52,133 bases of DNA from Archangium sp. (GTDB lineage: Bacteria; Myxococcota; Myxococcia; Myxococcales; Myxococcaceae): assembly GCA_030695565.1 (NCBI GenBank), contig JAUYRZ010000004.1, positions 1 to 52,133 on the forward strand. The letters run 5' to 3'. The notes under the pieces were generated by a model. That model was not told where the DNA came from and made no database searches. It worked only from the letters and a program-made list of their open reading frames with translations. Positions 7,851 through 34,657 of this stretch are shown here, piece after piece. Position 1 is the stretch's first letter. Each line of letters begins with the position of its first letter. The position numbers and the translations under genes were made by a program.

Positions 7851-10800
7851 TCACCCCTCCGGTTCGTCGGCGTCTTCGTCAGGTTCCTCGGGCGCCTCGT
7901 CCTGAACCACGGGGTCGACCGGCACGGACGGGAGCGAGCCCTTGAAGGTGGGCCTGAAGCGGCGCACCTGTTGGCGCAAGTGCAGACCCGTGCCGGCAGC
8001 GCTGTAGCCCAGCGCCTTGAAATACGACGCCAGCTCACTCTCGGCCGCGGCCTCTCCGTTGATCTCCCCCAACAGCGCGCCCTCCCCGCCGGCGAGCGAT
8101 TTCTGGTGGAGCGCCAGCACGGCCCTGGCGACGTGGCCCGCGACCTTGCCCCGCTGTGCCTCGTCATCGGGCAGGAACACGAACGCAGCCTTGTGACCAC
8201 GGCTCAGCCACGCGCGGGCATGACCGTCGATGAGCACCACGTGCGCTCCCGCCTGCCGCATGGGGCCTTTGCCCGGCCACTTCAGCAGCGCTCCGTACGG
8301 GTTTGCGGGGTCAGTCGCCGACACCACGACGACCTCCGGTTGCTCCGGCGGGGCCTTCAGGCTGCGCAGCACCTCGAGCGCGGGAGGCTGCGCAAACTGC
8401 ATCGCGCCCACGCCGCTGACGAAGTAGCCGCGCCGAACCTTCCCTCCGTCTTCCATCGCCTTGAACACGTCGTAGAGGCCCGAGAAGCCACCGACCGTGT
8501 TCTCGGCCGCAGCGACATCCCGGGTCACCAGGCCGTAGCGTGTGAGCCATTGCTGCGCCAGGCGGGTCGCCCACTGCGTATCGGTCAGCGCCGCCGCGTC
8601 GGCCTCGAGGCGGCGCTGCACCAGGCTCCACCGGCCGTCCGCCTGCACCGGCGTCGAACGCCTCGAGCGAAACGTTCGTGGCTCGAAGCTCTGGCGCTTC
8701 TTCGATTGCGCTTGAGTTCGAATCAGCTCGCGCAGCGGGAAGAAGCTGTCGTTGGTGAGAACCCCCTTCCAGGTGAGGCTCCACAGGGCCGCCACGAGCT
8801 CGGGCGCGAAGCCGCCGCCGAGCGCCTGGTGGAGCGACGCGAAGAACAACGCCCCCCGCTTTCTGAGCTGCTCGACGATCGCGCGCTCCTGGGGTGACAG
8901 GGTCTCTTCGTCGAGCGTCGCAGGCCGATGCAGGTGGGCGACGTGCTCGGTGAGATACAGCGCAATGCGGCCGTCTTTATCGCCTGACGGCTCAACGCCG
9001 ACCCAGACCACTTCTCCGGCGGCAGCGAGCGCGTCGAGGTCGCTCGGACGGTACCCTTCGACTCGCGCTGGCAGCAGCTCGTGCTCAAGCTGACTGGCGA
9101 GCACCGGCAGTCCCTGAAGTTTCTCGATCGCGTCGAGCAACGAATCGAGGCCCTGGCGCTTTCGATACAGCCCGTGCCACGAAATCAGAAACCGTCCGAA
9201 CACCTCGGGGGGGACCGGCTCGACCGCCTTGCGAACTTTGGCGAGCGATCGCATCCGCAGCGTCTGCAGCACTTCAGGTGCACACCACTCGTGCTGCTTC
9301 CCGAAGGGCCGGAACGCACCTTCCACGAGGCGCTTGGCCTGGCTGAGCTCTTTGAGCTTCTGCTCGACATCGGTGATGCGCAGCCCGTAGCGCGCCGCCA
9401 GATCTTGAGGCGAAAACGGACCGTGCGTTCGTGCGTAGCGCATCACCAGGTCGTCCATCGCGCTCGTCGACGTCACCAGCAGCGACTCGGGCAAACCGGG
9501 TGGCAGCGGCACGCCGAGCGCGTCGCGGTAGCGGCTGGCGTGCTCGACCGCGACCCAGCGCGCGCCATCGTGAAACTTACACTCCAGCGCGCGCCGCTCG
9601 ACCGCGAGCGCCTTCAGCGCCGCCGCGACGTCACCCTCGAAGCGCCGGGCCGCCTCATCGCTCTTCAGCTCACCGAGCTTGAGCAGCAGGTCGTGGAGCG
9701 CGTCTTTGTGTCTCGCCTGATACCCGGGCGCGAGCGCTTGCAGCTGGGCTTCGACCTCACCCACCACGTCGCCATCGAGCACGTCTCGCAGCTCGAGCTC
9801 GCCGAGCAGTTCGCGTAGTTGCGAGGTGTCGATCGACAACGCCTGAGCGCGCCGTTCCTGAAGCGGGGCATCGCCGTCGTAGATGTAGTTGGCGACGTAC
9901 CCGAAGAGCACGCTCGCAGCGAAGGGCGAGGGCGTGTCTCCGGTGCGAGTCACCACCTTGATGTGCTGCCGTTCGATGTCGCGCAGCGTCTGCGTCAGCG
10001 CCGACATGTCGAAGATGTCAGCGAGGCATTTGCGGTACGCCTCGAGCGTGATGGGGAAGGCGTCGAAGCGGGCGGCCGCGGCCATCAAATCCGACGCGCG
10101 TTTTCGCTGCTGCCACAGCGGGGTGCGCTGCGCAGGCCTTCGGCGCGGCAAGAGCAACGCGCGGGCTGCGGCTTCTCGAAACCTCGCCGCGAACATCGGC
10201 GTCATCGAGAGCTGGCGCATCACCAACGCCTCGACCTCTTCTGCTTTGGGGACGAGCCACCCCTCGCTGGGCAGGGCCGTGCCCTCGGGCAACCGAACCA
10301 CGAAGCCATCGTTCGTCCACAACGTCTCGACGTCGATGCCGAGCTCTTCTTTGGCCTTCGCCGCCACCGCCATGCTCCACGGCGCGAGCACCTGGCCCCC
10401 GAGCGGCGACAACACGCAGATGCGCAAGTCACCCAGCTCGTCACGCGAGGTCTCGATGGCGATGGTGTGGTCATCAGGCACGTGGCCCGCAGCGGTCTTC
10501 TGATCTTCGAGGTACCGCAGCAGGCTCTCGGCGGCGGTCAGGTCGAGGCCCTGCCGGGTGTGCAGCAGCTCGACCGCGGAAGCGTGGGGCAGGGCGAGCA
10601 GCGTGCGAACGAGCGCGCCGATGCGCTGGCCAAACTCGAGCGGGCGGGTCGCCGTCTCACCGCGCCAGAAAGGCATCTTGCCCGGCTCACCAGGTGCTGG
10701 AGAGACGATGACCTTGTCGAAGGTGATCTCCTGGATTCGCCAGGTCGACGCGCCGAGCACGAAGGTGTCGCCGGGTTTGCTCTCGAAGACCATCTCTTCG

Positions 10801-12410
10801 TCGAGCTCGCCCACCCGGCCCTGGCCCTTCGGAGCGCCCGCCAGGAAGACGCCGTACAAACCGCGATCGGGGATGGTGCCCCCGTTCAAGATGGCGACGC
10901 GCTGTGCCCCTTCACGCGGCTTGAGCTCGCCGTTCAGCCGGTCCCACGTGAGCCGGGGCTTCAGGTCAGCGAAGTCGTCGCTGGCGTAGCGACCCGAGAG
11001 CATGTCGAGCACCCGCTCGAAAGCGCCGCGGGTGAGGTCTGCGAAGGGGGCCGCTTGTCGCACCCGTTCGAAGAGCGCGTCGACGTGCAGCGGCTCCATG
11101 GCGATCATCGCCACGAGGTGTTGCGCGAGCACGTCGAGGGGGTTGCGCTGGTAGCGGGTGCTCTCGACGGCGCCCTCGCGCATGGCCTCGACCAGCGCCG
11201 CGCACGCGAGCAGATCGCCGCGGTACTTGGGCACCACGATGCCTTCGCTCGAGCCGCCGACGTGGTGGTTGGCCCGGCCGATGCGCTGCAACCCGCTGGC
11301 GACCGACGGAGGTGCCTCGACCAGCACCACCAGGTCGATGGCGCCCATGTCGATGCCCAGCTCGAGCGTGCTGGTGGCGACGAGCGCCCGAACGCGGCCG
11401 GCCTTCAGGTCTTCTTCGATGCGCGCGCGTTGGTCTTTGGCGACCGAGCCGTGGTGCGCGTGCACCAGCGTCTCGCCCTTCAGGTCGTTCAAGGCCTGGG
11501 CGAGCCGCTCCGCGAGGCGGCGGCTGTTGACGAAGATGAGCGTCGAGCGGTGCGTCTCGATGAGCTCGAGCACCTGGGGGTGAATGGCAGACCAGATCGA
11601 CGTCTCACCGCCGGTCGCGACCTCACCTCGGGCCTTGGCGGTCTTGCGAATCGAGAGGTCTTCGACAGGCACCTCGACCCGAAGCTTCAGCTGCTTTTTG
11701 GCCTGCGCGTCGACGACCGTCACCGGGCGATGGCGCGGCACCGCATCCGTCCCTCGGGGTTGGGCGCCCCCTAAGAAGCGGGCCACCTCGTCGAGCGGGC
11801 GACAGGTCGCCGACAGCCCGATGCGTTGCATCGGTGCACGGGTCAGCGCCTCGAGCCGCTCGAGCGAGAGCATCAAGTGGCTGCCGCGCTCCGTGGGTAC
11901 CAGCGCGTGAATCTCGTCGATGATGACGGTCTGCACGTCTCGCAGCGACTCGCGCGCACGTGAGGTGAGCATCAAGTACAGCGACTCCGGGGTCGTGATG
12001 AGAATGTCGGGCGCGTACTTGACCAGCCGCACGCGCTCTTTGGCCGGCGTGTCACCGCTGCGCACCCCCACGACAGGTGGAGCGACGCTGAGCCCGAGCC
12101 GCGCGGCCGCGTGGGTGACGCCGATGAGCGGGGCCCGCAGGTTGCGTTCGATGTCGACTCCGAGCGACTTGAGCGGCGAGATGTAGAGCACGCGCGTTCT
12201 CGTCTCGCCGGGCGGGCTGCGAAACATCAGCGCATCGATGGCATGGAGGAACGCCGCCAGCGTCTTGCCGCTCCCCGTCGGCGCGAGCAGCAAGGTCGAG
12301 TCGCCCCGGTGCAGCAAGGGCCAGGCCTTCTCTTGTGCCTCAGTCGGTTTGGCGAAGACCGCGGAGAACCACTCGCGGGTCGCTTGATGGAAGAGGTCGA
12401 GGGCGGCCAT
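7851..12410 (-). CDS. lhr: Lhr-type ATP-dependent superfamily 2 helicase
   Basis: A protein of 1519 residues, close to the usual ~1500 of full-length bacterial Lhr. The helicase core has Walker A APTGSGKT (43-50, K49), a DEIH Walker B at 165-168, an SAT motif III, a STLELGIDMGAIDLV motif and QRIGRANHHVGG as motif VI. A winged-helix region follows. The long C-terminal half corresponds to the Lhr-CTD and ends in an acidic tail. Lhr acts on DNA/RNA in repair or RNA processing. The gene is divergent from the Nei-type glycosylase 84 bp away, which fits a shared DNA-repair context. The ATG at 12410 precedes the first conserved block by the normal distance; upstream codons are not protein-like. Confidence 0.96.
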   Translation of the reverse strand: MAALDLFHQATREWFSAVFAKPTEAQEKAWPLLHRGDSTLLLAPTGSGKTLAAFLHAIDALMFRSPPGETRTRVLYISPLKSLGVDIERNLRAPLIGVTHAAARLGLSVAPPVVGVRSGDTPAKERVRLVKYAPDILITTPESLYLMLTSRARESLRDVQTVIIDEIHALVPTERGSHLMLSLERLEALTRAPMQRIGLSATCRPLDEVARFLGGAQPRGTDAVPRHRPVTVVDAQAKKQLKLRVEVPVEDLSIRKTAKARGEVATGGETSIWSAIHPQVLELIETHRSTLIFVNSRRLAERLAQALNDLKGETLVHAHHGSVAKDQRARIEEDLKAGRVRALVATSTLELGIDMGAIDLVVLVEAPPSVASGLQRIGRANHHVGGSSEGIVVPKYRGDLLACAALVEAMREGAVESTRYQRNPLDVLAQHLVAMIAMEPLHVDALFERVRQAAPFADLTRGAFERVLDMLSGRYASDDFADLKPRLTWDRLNGELKPREGAQRVAILNGGTIPDRGLYGVFLAGAPKGQGRVGELDEEMVFESKPGDTFVLGASTWRIQEITFDKVIVSPAPGEPGKMPFWRGETATRPLEFGQRIGALVRTLLALPHASAVELLHTRQGLDLTAAESLLRYLEDQKTAAGHVPDDHTIAIETSRDELGDLRICVLSPLGGQVLAPWSMAVAAKAKEELGIDVETLWTNDGFVVRLPEGTALPSEGWLVPKAEEVEALVMRQLSMTPMFAARFREAAARALLLPRRRPAQRTPLWQQRKRASDLMAAAARFDAFPITLEAYRKCLADIFDMSALTQTLRDIERQHIKVVTRTGDTPSPFAASVLFGYVANYIYDGDAPLQERRAQALSIDTSQLRELLGELELRDVLDGDVVGEVEAQLQALAPGYQARHKDALHDLLLKLGELKSDEAARRFEGDVAAALKALAVERRALECKFHDGARWVAVEHASRYRDALGVPLPPGLPESLLVTSTSAMDDLVMRYARTHGPFSPQDLAARYGLRITDVEQKLKELSQAKRLVEGAFRPFGKQHEWCAPEVLQTLRMRSLAKVRKAVEPVPPEVFGRFLISWHGLYRKRQGLDSLLDAIEKLQGLPVLASQLEHELLPARVEGYRPSDLDALAAAGEVVWVGVEPSGDKDGRIALYLTEHVAHLHRPATLDEETLSPQERAIVEQLRKRGALFFASLHQALGGGFAPELVAALWSLTWKGVLTNDSFFPLRELIRTQAQSKKRQSFEPRTFRSRRSTPVQADGRWSLVQRRLEADAAALTDTQWATRLAQQWLTRYGLVTRDVAAAENTVGGFSGLYDVFKAMEDGGKVRRGYFVSGVGAMQFAQPPALEVLRSLKAPPEQPEVVVVSATDPANPYGALLKWPGKGPMRQAGAHVVLIDGHARAWLSRGHKAAFVFLPDDEAQRGKVAGHVARAVLALHQKSLAGGEGALLGEINGEAAAESELASYFKALGYSAAGTGLHLRQQVRRFRPTFKGSLPSVPVDPVVQDEAPEEPDEDADEPEG

Positions 12411-12494
12411 GCCCGCCTTCTTTAACGGCCTCCCCCCTCGCACTGAAGAATTTGAAGCCTTTCCGGTTCGGTGTTCGCCCGTTAGGACTTCCCG

Positions 12495-13346
12495 GTGCCC
12501 GAAGGCGACACGCTGCACAACATCGCCAAGACCCTGCGCCCCGCGCTCGAGGGGAAGGTCGTCACGCGGCTCGAGTTCTCGCGCCTGGCCGGCGACGCGC
12601 GCGTGCTGGTCGGCACCACCATCACGACCGTGGAAGCTCAGGGCAAGAACCTGCTCATTCACTTCGACAACGGGCTCGTGCTGCACACGCACCTCAAGAT
12701 GCCGGGCGCCTGGCACCTGTATCGACCGGGCCAGCAGTGGAGGCGGTCGCCCTCCCAGGCCCGGGTGGTGCTCGAGGTCGAAGACGCGCAGGCCGTTTGT
12801 TACAACGCCCCGGTCGTGCGGGTGCTGCGCGAAAGTGAGCTGCGCCGTGACCGCCAGCTCGCGGGACTGGGGCCTGACCTCCTCTCAGAGAACTTCGACG
12901 CAGCCCGCGCCATCGCCAACTTGAGGGTCGTCGAGGGTTGGCCGCTGGGCGTCGCGGTGATGCACCAGGCCGCGGTCGCCGGCATCGGCAACGTGTACAA
13001 GAGCGAGCTGCTTTTTCTCGAGGGCCTCGACCCCTTCGAGCCCGTCGCGTCGTTCGACGATGAGGTGCTGCATGCGGTGCTCGCCCGCGCGCGCGAGCTG
13101 ATGCAGGTCAACACCAACCATGGCTCCGATTCACCGTTCACCGGCCGGCGTACCACGCGCTTCGAGGGCCGCTCAGACGGGACGAAGGTGTGGGTCTACG
13201 GACGCCGGGGTCTGCCGTGCTTTCGCTGCGGGGCTGCCATTCGCATGAAGCGGCAGGGCACCGCGCTGCGCTCGACGTACTTTTGCGCGGGCTGTCAGGG
13301 CATCAGCGAAGAGAAGCTCGCGGTGCTCTTCGCCGCAAAATCGTGA
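12495..13346 (+). CDS. nei: Endonuclease VIII/Fpg-family DNA glycosylase (Nei2-like)
   Basis: A protein of 283 residues from a GTG start (12495). The start is fixed because the family needs Pro2 and Glu3 right after the initiator, and the frame begins MPEGDT, the signature of the Nei/endonuclease VIII branch. Pro2 forms the Schiff base with the damaged sugar and Glu3 assists. The H2TH DNA-binding region (AVAGIGNVYKSELL) lies near residues 160-175. The C-terminus carries a zinc finger, CFRC...YFCAGC, with the loop Arg in ALRSTY just before the second Cys pair. It excises oxidised pyrimidines in base-excision repair. It is divergent from lhr, so both probably share the 84-bp promoter region. 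Confidence 0.95.
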   Translation: MPEGDTLHNIAKTLRPALEGKVVTRLEFSRLAGDARVLVGTTITTVEAQGKNLLIHFDNGLVLHTHLKMPGAWHLYRPGQQWRRSPSQARVVLEVEDAQAVCYNAPVVRVLRESELRRDRQLAGLGPDLLSENFDAARAIANLRVVEGWPLGVAVMHQAAVAGIGNVYKSELLFLEGLDPFEPVASFDDEVLHAVLARARELMQVNTNHGSDSPFTGRRTTRFEGRSDGTKVWVYGRRGLPCFRCGAAIRMKRQGTALRSTYFCAGCQGISEEKLAVLFAAKS

Positions 13347-28938: not shown

Positions 28939-31900
28939 ATGACCGTCGTCGTCGTCGCCGAGAAGCCCTCCGTGGCGCGGGATCTCGCCCGGGTGCTGGG
29001 CGCGACCGCGCGTGGCGACGGCACCCTCTCGGGCAACGGCTACGTCGTCACCTGGGCCATCGGTCACCTGGTGGGCCTGGCCCAGCCTGAAGGCATTCGC
29101 CCGGAGTGGAAGCGCTGGAGCCGCGCGACCCTGCCGATGTTGCCGCAAGAGTGGCCGCTCCAGGTGCTCGAGGGCACGCGCGCTCAGTTCGCGGTGGTCT
29201 CCAAAGCGCTCACCGCTCGCGACGTCACCGGCGTCATCTGCGCGACGGATGCCGGGCGCGAGGGTGAGCTCATCTTCCGCTTCATCTACGAGGCCGCGGG
29301 CTGCCGGAAGCCGGTCAAGCGGTTGTGGATCTCGTCGCTCACCGACGGGGCCATCAAAGAGGGCTTCGCGAAGCTGCGGCCCGCCACCGACTTCGATGGG
29401 CTGGCGGATGCGGCCGTGGGGCGCAGCCGGGCGGATTGGCTGGTGGGCATGAACCTGTCGCGGGCCTACGGCATCGCGATGGATGCGCCGTTGTCGGTCG
29501 GGCGCGTGCAGACGCCCACGCTCGCGCTGCTGGTCGAACGTGAACTGGCGATTCGCGACTTCGTGCCTGAAGATTATTTCGAGGTCCTGGCCACGTTCTC
29601 TCCGCGGGAGGGCGCGAGTTATCGCGGCACGTGGCATCGGCCGGGCACGCACGAACATCCGCGGCGCCTCGATAAAGACGGAGCAGAAGCCAACGCCATC
29701 GTCGCGCGGGCGAAGACCGGTGAAGCGCGCATCGCGTCGGTCACTTCGAAGTCGAAGAAGCTGCCGCCGCCGTTGCTCTACGACCTGACCGAGCTGCAGC
29801 GGCACTTGAACCGGCTCTACGGGTTCTCGGCCTCCCGCAGCCTCGAGCTGGCGCAGGCGCTCTACGAGAAGCACAAGGTCATCAGCTACCCGCGCACCGA
29901 CAGCCGGCATCTCTCCAACGAGGTGGCCGGTACGTTGGGGCCCATCACCCGGGCGATCCGCGGGCCGTACGAGCCGAACATCGCGCCGGGTACGGGCGAG
30001 CGGCCGCTGTCGAAACGGTTCGTCGATGACACCCAGGTGAGCGATCACCACGCGATCATTCCCACCGCGACGCCTGCGCACGGGCTGAGCGGTGACGAGC
30101 AGAAGGTGTACTCGCTCATCTGCCGGCGGCTGTTGCAGGCCTGGCATGACGACTTCACCTGGGCGGCGACCGAGGTGGTCACGGAGCTCAAGACGCCCGG
30201 CGTGGTCGACACGTACCGCAGCCATGGCACGGCGATCGAGCAGCAGGGGTGGAAGGTGCTCGATGTCGGCGGGGTGAAACCGCCGAAAGAGAAGGGCGCG
30301 GGGCCCGAGGAGGAAGAAGAAGGGCTGCTCCCGTCGGGGCTGGAGAAAAATCAACTGCAGAAGGTGCTCGACGCGAAGGCTGTGCAGCGGCGTACGCGGC
30401 CGCCTCCGCGGCTCAATGACGCGACCTTGCTGACCGCGATGGAGACGGCGGGCAAGACGCTCGATGAACGTGAGCTGTCCGAGGCGATGAAGGAGAACGG
30501 CCTGGGCACGCCGGCGACCCGCGCCAACATCATCGAGACGTTGCTCACCCGCGAGTACGTGAGCCGCGATGGGAAGTCGTTGGTCGCGACGGACAAGGGC
30601 ATCGGGCTCATCGCGGTGGTGGATCCCGAGGTGAAGAGCGCGGCGATGACCGGTGCGTGGGAAGCGCGGCTTCAGCGGATCGCCAAACGGCAGGGGAATC
30701 TCGGCGAGTTCATTCGGGGCATCGAGGCGTACGTGACCGCGGTGGTGGGCCGCGTGCCGCCGCAACTGGGAGGAGGCGGTAGTCCCCCGGTTCCTCCCGG
30801 GAGCAGATTTGCCGCCACCGTGCCCCCTGAGCGGAGTCGAGGGGCCACTTCCGCCGCGCCCAGGCAGTACGCCCTCGACTCAGCCCCCAGGGAACAGCGC
30901 ACGCCGGTCCTCCCGGGCGGAGTCGAAGGCGCAACGCTGGCTCGCGCAGCCAGCGGCAGCTCGACTGCGCTCGACGGGAGGGGCGTCGGAGTCGCCGGGT
31001 TGCAGAAGCTCCTGCGCACGCCCTTCGGCTTCGCCAGCTACCGCCCGCACCAACAAGCCGCCTGCGAAGCCTCTGCCGCCGGTGAAGACGTGCTGCTCGT
31101 CATGCCCACGGGCGCGGGCAAATCGCTGTGCTACCAGCTGCCTGGCCTCGCCCGCGGCGGCACCACGCTGGTGATCAGCCCGCTCATCGCGCTGATGGAA
31201 GACCAGGTCGCCGGGCTCCAGGCCAAAGGCCTGCGCGCCGAACGGATCCACTCCGGCCGAGGCCGGCTCGACTCACGCCGCGTGTGCAACGAGTACCTCG
31301 AAGGCACACTCGACTACCTCTTCATCGCCCCCGAACGTCTCGGCGTCCCGAACTTCCCCGAGCTGCTCGCGCGCCGCCTGCCCACGCTCATCGCGATCGA
31401 CGAAGCGCACTGCATCTCGCAATGGGGTCACGACTTTCGCCCCGACTACCGGCTGCTGGGCGAGCGGCTGCCCATGCTGCGCCCTGCACCCGTGATGGCG
31501 CTCACCGCCACCGCGACGCCCCTCGTTCAGGCCGACATCGTCAAGCAGCTCGGCCTGCGCACCGGCGCCCGCCAGCTCATTCACGGTTTCCGCCGGCACA
31601 ACCTGGCGATCGAAGCGCTCGAGGTCACGCCGCACGAACGCATCGACCGCGCGCAACAGTGGCTCAGCGACCCCGCCCGCGTTCCGGCCATCGTCTACGC
31701 CCCCACCCGCAAGACCGCCGAAGCCGCCGCCGAAACGCTCGGTGAAAACCTGCGCGTCGCCCCGTACCACGCGGGCCTTTCACCCGAGGTCCGCGCCAAC
31801 ACGCAGACGGCGTTCCTCACCGGCAAACTCGACGTGGTGGTCGCCACGGTCGCCTTCGGCATGGGCGTCGACAAAGCGAACGTGCGCACCGTGCTCCACC

Positions 31901-33012
31901 TGGCGCTGCCCGGAAGCGTCGAGGCCTACTACCAGGAGATCGGCCGCGCCGGCCGCGACGGGCTCCCCTCGCGTGCGGTGTTGATGCACCACTTCGTCGA
32001 TCGCAAGACGCACGAGTTCTTCCTCGCCCGCGACTACCCCGATGCCGCGGTGCTCAAGAAGCTCGCGCGCGCGGTCAACGACGTTCCCCAGGATGCCGAG
32101 AGCGTGCGCAGGCGCTCCCGCGTCAACATGGACGACTTCGAGAAGGCGCTGGAGAAGTTGTGGATTCACGGCGGCGTTCGAGGCGTCACCGAGGACCAAC
32201 TCACGCGCGGCCATGACGATTGGGCGGCTCCGTATGCCGAGCAGCGCCGCCTTCGTGAGGAGCAGCTGGCGCTCGTCGCCCGCTTCGCCGAGAGCCACCG
32301 CTGCCGCATGGTGTCCCTCGTGCAGCACTTCGGTGACCAGGAAGACTCTGGCAAGCCCTGCGGGTTGTGTGACGTCTGCGCGCCCACCCAGTGCATCGGC
32401 GCGTTGTTCGAACGACCGGGCGCCGAGGAGGTCACCATTCTGTCCGAGCTGCTCGCGCGGCTGCGAGCGTCACCCGGGCAGGCGAGCGGCCGGTTGTGCC
32501 GGGAGTTGCTCGGCGATGCTCCGGATGCGCGGCCCCGGTTCGAGCGGCTGCTCTCGGGGCTGGTGCGCGCGGGCCAGGTGCGCGTGGAAGACGACGTCTT
32601 CGAGAAAGACGGGAAGAAGATTCCTTTTCACCGGCTCCATTTGATCGGCCGCGGCTCGTTGGAGGGCGTGCAGTTGCCGCTCAAGAGCGCTGCGGTGAAG
32701 AAGGGGAAGCGGCCGCTGAAGACGAGCACGCGAAAGCGGCGCGGGTCGAAGCGGGAAGGGCGCAAGCCAGCGGTGGAGTTGCCCTCGTCGGGCGCGTCCG
32801 CCGGCCTGGTGGCGACGCTGCGCGCGTGGCGGCTGGAGGAGGCGCGCAAGCGGCGGGTGCCCGCGTTCAGGGTGCTCACCAATCGCGCGCTGGTCGCGGT
32901 GGCAGAGGCCCGGCCCACCAGCGCGGCGGCACTGCGGGGCGTCGCGGGCATTGGGCCGAAGGTGGTGAAGGACTCAGGGGCTCAGCTGGTCGCGTTGTGT
33001 TCTCGGAGTTGA
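28939..33012 (+). CDS. topB/recQ: DNA topoisomerase III - RecQ helicase fusion
   Basis: A single frame of 1357 residues. Residues 1-~610 are a type IA topoisomerase: Toprim domain from VVVAEKPSVARDLA with ATDAGREGEL, and active-site Tyr317 in VISYPRTDSRHL, the topoisomerase III form. Residues ~625-690 are a Gly/Pro/Ser linker. From ~692 a full RecQ follows: GFASYRPHQ, Walker A MPTGAGKS (K728), DEAH at 821-824 with CISQWGHDF, TATATP, the YYQEIGRAGRDG motif VI, the zinc cysteines in PCGLCDVC, a winged-helix part, a Lys-rich stretch and a terminal HRDC domain. Separate RecQ and TopoIII proteins cooperate in decatenation and Holliday-junction dissolution; here they are one chain. ATG at 28939, no strong ribosome-binding site. 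Confidence 0.95.
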   Translation: MTVVVVAEKPSVARDLARVLGATARGDGTLSGNGYVVTWAIGHLVGLAQPEGIRPEWKRWSRATLPMLPQEWPLQVLEGTRAQFAVVSKALTARDVTGVICATDAGREGELIFRFIYEAAGCRKPVKRLWISSLTDGAIKEGFAKLRPATDFDGLADAAVGRSRADWLVGMNLSRAYGIAMDAPLSVGRVQTPTLALLVERELAIRDFVPEDYFEVLATFSPREGASYRGTWHRPGTHEHPRRLDKDGAEANAIVARAKTGEARIASVTSKSKKLPPPLLYDLTELQRHLNRLYGFSASRSLELAQALYEKHKVISYPRTDSRHLSNEVAGTLGPITRAIRGPYEPNIAPGTGERPLSKRFVDDTQVSDHHAIIPTATPAHGLSGDEQKVYSLICRRLLQAWHDDFTWAATEVVTELKTPGVVDTYRSHGTAIEQQGWKVLDVGGVKPPKEKGAGPEEEEEGLLPSGLEKNQLQKVLDAKAVQRRTRPPPRLNDATLLTAMETAGKTLDERELSEAMKENGLGTPATRANIIETLLTREYVSRDGKSLVATDKGIGLIAVVDPEVKSAAMTGAWEARLQRIAKRQGNLGEFIRGIEAYVTAVVGRVPPQLGGGGSPPVPPGSRFAATVPPERSRGATSAAPRQYALDSAPREQRTPVLPGGVEGATLARAASGSSTALDGRGVGVAGLQKLLRTPFGFASYRPHQQAACEASAAGEDVLLVMPTGAGKSLCYQLPGLARGGTTLVISPLIALMEDQVAGLQAKGLRAERIHSGRGRLDSRRVCNEYLEGTLDYLFIAPERLGVPNFPELLARRLPTLIAIDEAHCISQWGHDFRPDYRLLGERLPMLRPAPVMALTATATPLVQADIVKQLGLRTGARQLIHGFRRHNLAIEALEVTPHERIDRAQQWLSDPARVPAIVYAPTRKTAEAAAETLGENLRVAPYHAGLSPEVRANTQTAFLTGKLDVVVATVAFGMGVDKANVRTVLHLALPGSVEAYYQEIGRAGRDGLPSRAVLMHHFVDRKTHEFFLARDYPDAAVLKKLARAVNDVPQDAESVRRRSRVNMDDFEKALEKLWIHGGVRGVTEDQLTRGHDDWAAPYAEQRRLREEQLALVARFAESHRCRMVSLVQHFGDQEDSGKPCGLCDVCAPTQCIGALFERPGAEEVTILSELLARLRASPGQASGRLCRELLGDAPDARPRFERLLSGLVRAGQVRVEDDVFEKDGKKIPFHRLHLIGRGSLEGVQLPLKSAAVKKGKRPLKTSTRKRRGSKREGRKPAVELPSSGASAGLVATLRAWRLEEARKRRVPAFRVLTNRALVAVAEARPTSAAALRGVAGIGPKVVKDSGAQLVALCSRS
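30824..30979. repeat. Palindromic repeat remnants forming the TopoIII-RecQ linker
   Basis: Within the linker the DNA carries four related short motifs: ccctgagcggagtcgagggg (30825), gccctcgactcagccccc (30871), gggcggagtcgaagg (30915) and ctcgactgcgctcgacggg (~30958). They resemble half-sites of the dispersed 'ccctTCGACTccgctcaggg' type intergenic palindrome, in alternating orientation. Composition differs from both flanking domains. A repeat element appears to have been absorbed in frame as linker sequence. Confidence 0.5.
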
Positions 33013-33619: not shown

Positions 33620-34657
33620 ATGCCGTGGGTGGTCGAACAGTCGAGAAACAAGAGCCTCTGCAAGGAGTGCCGTCGCGACATACCGAAGGGTGAGTGGCGC
33701 TTCGGAAAGAACCACGGAGAGCCGCGCTGGTTCCACCTGCGCTGCGGCTCCCGAGGAGCGCCGCAGATGTTCCCGCCCTTCGCCGCGCAGGTGCAGGCGA
33801 TTCTCGGCGCGAAGCCGGACGAGAGTCGGCCGCTGTCGGAGGTCGAGCGCGCGATGGTTGCGAAGCTCGACGGCAAGGGTCTGCCGGTGCTCGCCGATTG
33901 GCTCATCTCGAAGGGCGACCCGTGGGGAGAGCTGATCACCCTGCGCCTCTCAGGAGAAGACGACCTGGCCGTCGAACACTTCGATACCCATCTCGAGTCG
34001 CTGGTCGGCGACATGCCCGGAGAGGATCTCTCCTGGCTCCAGGGCGTCGTGAGCCGCGCCGACCTCGACGGCAGCGGCCCGGGGTTGCGCAAGAAGCTCG
34101 AGGCGGTGCTGACCCATCGCACCGCTTCGCGGCTCGACACACTCGACATCTACAGCACGGCGCTCGAGCCGGCGCTGGTGACGCTGCTCTCAGAGAAAGC
34201 ACCCGCGTCGTTGACCTCGCTGACCTTGCGTGGGCGCGCGGCGGGGTTGGAGCACCTCTCGCTCCCCCGGCTCGAAGCGCTGCGGCTCGAGCTGAACCCT
34301 GAGGCGATGGCGGGGCTGTTGAAGGCGACGCTCCCGAAGCTGCGCGCGCTCACCTTGCAGACCACGAAGAAGCCGCTGCCGGTGGCCTTCGTCGAAGGGC
34401 TGATCACCTCTCGACTGTTTGCGCGACTGGAGCACCTCGAGTTCGAAGAAGCCGGCCCGGTGGGCAGCTCGCTCGACGACGCAGGGTTGCGCGTGCTCCT
34501 CGGAGCTGACACCTCGCGCCTGAAGAGTACGTACGTCGAGCTCGCGGGGCGCAATGTGACGCCGGAGCAGAAGAAGGCGGCGCAGAAGAAGTTCGCGAAG
34601 ACCAACGCCGTGTTCCTGAAGAACCCGCCCGAGGAGCCGGAGTTCGACGAACTCTGA
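33620..34657 (+). CDS. PARP-type zinc-finger protein with TIGR02996-like and LRR-like regions
   Basis: A protein of 345 residues; ATG at 33620 with GAAGGGTGAG upstream. Residues 10-45 fit the PARP-type zinc finger: C14-x2-C17, the DIPKGEWRFGK strand, then WFHLRC with H39 and C42 (CCHC). In PARP1 and DNA ligase III this finger recognises DNA nicks and ends. Residues ~92-115 (VLADWLISKGDPWGELITLR) match the TIGR02996 repeat-companion motif seen in myxobacteria. Residues ~160-310 are leucine-rich repeat-like. The C-terminus is basic then acidic. No ADP-ribosyltransferase domain, so it could be a DNA-break-binding adaptor; that role is inferred. Confidence 0.8.
   Translation: MPWVVEQSRNKSLCKECRRDIPKGEWRFGKNHGEPRWFHLRCGSRGAPQMFPPFAAQVQAILGAKPDESRPLSEVERAMVAKLDGKGLPVLADWLISKGDPWGELITLRLSGEDDLAVEHFDTHLESLVGDMPGEDLSWLQGVVSRADLDGSGPGLRKKLEAVLTHRTASRLDTLDIYSTALEPALVTLLSEKAPASLTSLTLRGRAAGLEHLSLPRLEALRLELNPEAMAGLLKATLPKLRALTLQTTKKPLPVAFVEGLITSRLFARLEHLEFEEAGPVGSSLDDAGLRVLLGADTSRLKSTYVELAGRNVTPEQKKAAQKKFAKTNAVFLKNPPEEPEFDEL

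Follow-up and report, generated by a model that had tools for sequence, protein, structure and literature searches.

The open reading frame at positions 28939-33012 of the 52,133-nucleotide stretch analyzed here (the window; Archangium sp., contig JAUYRZ010000004.1) raises the question of whether topoisomerase III and a RecQ helicase are made as one chain and, if so, whether the two halves form a working enzyme. The frame starts at an ATG and encodes 1357 amino acids with zero internal stops. All Pfam domains lie in order within this single frame, in agreement with the original prediction of a topoisomerase III fused to RecQ in one 1357-residue protein. The features of the locus are as follows.

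28939-33012, plus strand: topoisomerase III-RecQ fusion gene, 1357 aa (ORF, Pfam, NCBIfam)
28948-29337, plus strand: Toprim domain, residues 4-133 (Pfam, alignment)
29395-30711, plus strand: Topoisom_bac core, residues 153-591 (Pfam; AF2 model with E. coli topoisomerase III as top Foldseek match)
29887-29889, plus strand: catalytic Tyr317 in SYPRTDS (sequence; invariant among 39 fusions)
30751-31002, plus strand: linker, residues 605-688, with predicted disorder at 611-676 and repeat-bearing DNA (AF2, genome repeats, dN/dS 0.69)
31042-31518, plus strand: RecQ helicase lobe 1, DEAD, residues 702-860 (Pfam, alignment)
Within lobe 1, plus strand: Walker A K728, DEAH 821-824 and the aromatic-rich loop CISQWGHDFRPDY (sequence, alignment)
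31684-31962, plus strand: RecQ helicase lobe 2, Helicase_C, residues 916-1008, with motif VI QEIGRAGRDG (Pfam, sequence)
32044-32208, plus strand: small helical/winged-helix-like insert preceding the Zn domain, residues 1036-1090 (secondary structure of the AF2 model)
32236-32379, plus strand: RecQ Zn-binding domain, residues 1100-1147, with C1122, C1141, C1144 and C1147 (Pfam, alignment)
32422-32643, plus strand: predicted RQC-type winged helix with beta wing, residues 1162-1235, missed by Pfam (AF2 model)
32659-32790, plus strand: second linker, basic and of low complexity, residues 1241-1284 (sequence; low pLDDT at 1254-1275; dN/dS 0.48)
32803-32997, plus strand: HRDC domain, residues 1289-1353 (Pfam; dN/dS 0.10)

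The N-terminal half retains an intact type IA core, as had been proposed. It passes the curated NCBIfam cut-offs for topoisomerase III (NF005829, 645 versus 597 bits; TIGR01056, 549 versus 516 bits) and matches Pfam Topoisom_bac with an E value of 7e-103. The catalytic tyrosine and the Toprim acids are kept, with Y317, R319, E8, D104 and E108 present in 38-39 of the 39 aligned fusions. The second aspartate of the Toprim DxD motif is Gly106 (TDAGREGE), which is glycine throughout the aligned fusions and also in six clostridial TopB rows of the alignment. The best Foldseek match to the AF2 model of this half was E. coli topoisomerase III, the nearest solved structure (PDB 1d6m and 2o19), with which it has the Toprim domain, the type IA core and the catalytic tyrosine in common. 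However, the fusion differs from E. coli TopB in its Toprim motif, DAGRE rather than DxDxE, and matches only to about residue 594, after which the linker and RecQ stand in place of the end of the TopB model. The C-terminal region of topoisomerase III is accordingly absent, as the TIGR01056 match stops at position 597 of 706, and RecQ comes next.

Judged by its sequence models, the C-terminal half is a RecQ-family member and not a canonical RecQ, since it passes the family model (TIGR00614, 368 versus 220 bits) and falls below the cut-off of the canonical equivalog (TIGR01389, 447 versus 640 bits) in NCBIfam. The Walker A, the DEAH box, W829/F833 and the motif VI arginine are invariant across the 39 aligned fusions, and the Zn-binding domain (PF16124) is matched with its four cysteines conserved in essentially all of them. 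HRDC is matched by PF00570 with an E value of 5e-17; in the fusions of Nannocystis and Pseudobacteriovorax, Pfam did not detect this domain. An AF2 model of the RecQ half, based on an alignment of 48 relatives, reached a pLDDT of 90.6 and a pTM of 0.83. In this model the helicase is followed by a small helical/winged insert and the Zn hairpin, then by a winged helix whose beta wing is long, and finally by a disordered stretch that leads to HRDC. VIA-align superposed residues 2-568 of the model onto residues 8-513 of D. radiodurans RecQ over 462 residues (Z 41.1, rmsd 6.0). Pfam lists no RQC domain for the fusion protein; on the model, the winged helix that follows the Zn domain is of RQC type. 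The motifs, the Zn cysteines, the modeled RQC and the PF00570 match uphold the earlier description of an intact RecQ core with HRDC. Bacterial RecQ proteins (E. coli, 1oyw; D. radiodurans, 4q48) share with the fusion the helicase core, the aromatic-rich loop, the Zn cysteines, the RQC winged helix and HRDC, whereas the fused RecQ has in addition the helical/winged insert before the Zn domain and the N-terminal topoisomerase.

With this architecture the protein is probably a bifunctional tethered RecQ-topoisomerase III strand-passage enzyme, for which we infer the activity, the coupling of the halves and a role in dissolution or decatenation; the natural single-chain decatenase or dissolvase of the original prediction can thus be reasonably proposed from the sequence. 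In place of the usual C-terminal tail of topoisomerase III, the protein has a flexible linker followed by an entire RecQ helicase. Known RecQs are 3'-5' motors. In the suggested mechanism, the RecQ motor would unwind duplex DNA or drive together branched intermediates such as double Holliday junctions, converging forks or precatenanes, and this would hand single-stranded or hemicatenated DNA straight to the type IA active site on the same tether. There the DNA would be cut via Tyr317, the other strand passed and the break resealed. With the tether, each activity would meet the other at high local concentration, and pairing would then require neither an RMI1-like bridge nor an SSB contact. The Sgs1-Top3-Rmi1 and BLM-TOP3A-RMI dissolvasome likewise pairs a RecQ helicase with a type IA topoisomerase, although as separate proteins complexed with RMI1, whereas the fusion is one polypeptide. 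A more far-reaching proposal, which we put forward tentatively, is a self-contained bacterial dissolvasome, a single chain that would migrate double Holliday junctions and decatenate them with no need for RMI1, fixed by one ancient fusion and retained in several phyla as the sole topoisomerase III; the fusion would then show RecQ-topoisomerase III cooperation to be a real, selected function in bacteria.

The AF2 model of residues 1-1150 gave two halves that were each confident, a disordered linker at 611-676 and no confident relative orientation of the halves. At its pTM of 0.57 no fixed arrangement is predicted and direct allosteric coupling is unsupported. Linkers among the relatives range from 22 to 374 residues with a median of 69, and any coupling must therefore tolerate a loose tether. 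The best reading of the models is that the halves are flexibly tethered rather than rigidly docked. The linker DNA (window 30760-31010) consists of dispersed repeats that have 28 other matches in the genome and are translated in frame, explaining the odd composition and length drift of the linker. In a comparison with the nearest full relative, which is 85% identical, TopB had a dN/dS of 0.13, the helicase and Zn part 0.12 and HRDC 0.10, against 0.69 in the linker. Strong purifying selection acts on both halves (dN/dS about 0.12) but not on the linker.

A disordered, unconserved linker of such variable length and the lack of a predicted interface would also suit an uncoupled bifunctional protein. 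Here one fusion event, for example from adjacent genes, would have been kept because both activities are useful, with the halves acting on separate substrates and the tether having no mechanistic role. We consider this unlikely, as the fusion has been retained across several phyla and the sampled members of the fused clade included no re-split gene; wherever a row inside the TopB or RecQ clade is not fused, it is a contig-end fragment or carries a frameshift. The fused TopB domains formed one clade (SH-aLRT 95), as did the fused RecQ domains (support 99), which lie separate and far from the stand-alone RecQ proteins of the same genomes. Distances in the two half-trees were correlated with a Mantel r of 0.90, compared to a permutation maximum of 0.24, and 24 of the 27 strongly supported RecQ splits were shared with the TopB tree. 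Strong splits in conflict were limited to two pairs, both inside Acidobacteriota. One clade for each half together with the agreement of the trees indicates one fusion event in the sample, inherited or moved as a unit. Independent or repeated fusions were also considered and are not needed to account for these trees. The tethered strand-passage enzyme is favored by the architecture, the intact catalytic residues, the single origin, the co-inheritance of the halves, the purifying selection and the absence of a second topoisomerase III from the genome.

An ATP-driven helicase joined to a type IA topoisomerase could alternatively alter supercoiling, for example toward positive, in the manner of reverse gyrase instead of dissolving junctions. 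Reverse gyrase combines an SF2 helicase module and a type IA topoisomerase in a single chain, the same general combination as in the fusion. However, the domain order is opposite, with the topoisomerase first in the fusion, and the helicase is of a different family, a genuine RecQ that carries Zn, RQC and HRDC domains. The TIGR01054 score of 87 bits is far under the cut-off of 471.7, and none of the named hosts is a known hyperthermophile. Reverse gyrase was rejected on domain order and model score, and a reverse-gyrase-like activity appears highly improbable. The chance that assembly or gene calling merged adjacent topB and recQ genes is negligible and this artefact was rejected, since, although dispersed repeats such as those of the linker DNA are a classic place for misjoins, homologues in the complete Sorangium and Nannocystis chromosomes, a single-contig relative and dozens of species carry the same fusion and the trees of the two halves are congruent.

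An assembly error in the linker had been named at the outset as a possible refutation, and is ruled out by these finished-genome homologues and by the frame across the linker, which is open in every full-length relative and broken only by contig ends and in three frameshifted MAG copies. The suggested architecture search returned a whole conserved fusion family rather than a one-off. TopB-type matches were found in 85 of the 147 genomes of the source's class, and in 77 of these 85 the match sits in one frame 1200 aa or more in length. Most of the others are contig-end fragments, and G024 and G120 hold divergent stand-alone TopB proteins (L129, G024:C8; L131, G120:C11). G120 has no fusion match though its genus mates carry the fusion, reflecting either replacement or an assembly gap. 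Both halves lay in one frame at 55 loci of the named genome collection. The fusion was found in Sorangium, Nannocystis, Labilithrix and Corallococcus, the last (Myxococcaceae) being the named members of the source genome's family in the tree. It was also found in MAGs assigned to Acidobacteriota (Bryobacterales among them), Planctomycetota, Competibacteraceae, Bdellovibrionota and a Geobacter, where the taxonomy is as labelled and single contigs may be misbinned, making the rarer phyla less secure. Many myxobacteria and acidobacteria thus carry a joined topoisomerase III-RecQ, usually as the sole topoisomerase III, and the copy of the source genome is ordinary for the family. In genome G161 (L133:245-3619, minus strand, contig C54), a TopB of deep divergence is linked to a RecQ-like half. 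This RecQ-like half has lost the Walker A and the DEAH box and kept the Zn cysteines, and by sequence the product is probably a topoisomerase whose partner domain is a dead helicase. G161 also carries another TopB (L132).

The original prediction had further named stand-alone topB and recQ genes as a possible refutation. In the source genome (8.5 Mb in 134 contigs) a stand-alone recQ is indeed present, but no stand-alone topB was found, the only such match being TopA-like (C80), and the refutation fails; the fusion is the only topoisomerase III of this genome. A second topB is absent in most relatives too. The genome also holds TopA, the stand-alone RecQ (C22, 687 aa), RecG, RuvC and a gyrase/topo IV type A subunit, and the fusion is missing from several good-quality genomes of the family. 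The presence of stand-alone RecQ, RecG and RuvC and the family genomes without the gene weigh against the tethered enzyme. In G011 and G015, which are without the fusion, the TopB family model gave only TopA-like matches, indicating that the family mostly has its topoisomerase III in fused form or lacks the enzyme. A 649-aa open frame (L152, G000:C72:95148-96110) matches the gyrase A/ParC model only over residues 305-642, and its first 300 residues gave no match to gyrase A/ParC models.

RecQ and topoisomerase III act in trans in vitro, as do Sgs1-Top3-Rmi1 and BLM-TOP3A-RMI in eukaryotes (PMC7140829, PMC13244152), and E. coli RecQ stimulates topoisomerase III in vitro (cited in PMC7140829 and PMC13244152). 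The bacterial partnership is disputed, however. A 2020 review found no good evidence for a RecQ-topoisomerase III 'toposome' in E. coli (PMC7140829, section 6), and a 2026 study of E. coli genetics reported that topoisomerase III acts with RecG, not RecQ (PMC13244152). The fusion bears directly on this dispute. That a conserved covalent fusion retains both catalytic centres and is the one topoisomerase III of its genome is strong evolutionary evidence for a selected pairing in other bacteria, and makes the family a natural test of RecQ-topoisomerase III teamwork in bacteria. The fusion is also a single-chain enzyme ready for biochemical and structural work, and in myxobacterial hosts the topoisomerase III-RecQ link can be cut genetically. 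No published description of the fusion was found in the open full-text literature, with subscription papers, where an earlier mention is possible, lying outside the search. The component families are known; their joining in one chain, how widely it occurs and its single origin appear not to have been described in the open papers covered.

In Listeria monocytogenes (NZ_LR134400.1, L153), recQ and topB follow each other on one strand 23 bp apart, in what is by its layout an apparent operon. Unlike the fusion, these are two unfused genes with recQ first, and they fall outside the fused clade. The pair is a second, independent hint of RecQ-topoisomerase III coupling. The record NZ_LR134400.1 is filed as a 594-kb plasmid, yet carries guaB and other housekeeping genes. 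Within the window, a 1621-aa Lhr-type helicase with a complete series of Lhr winged-helix domains is encoded at 7854-12716 on the minus strand. Finally, a 345-aa protein encoded at 33620-34654 on the plus strand shows a weak N-terminal zf-PARP zinc finger, under the Pfam cut-off.
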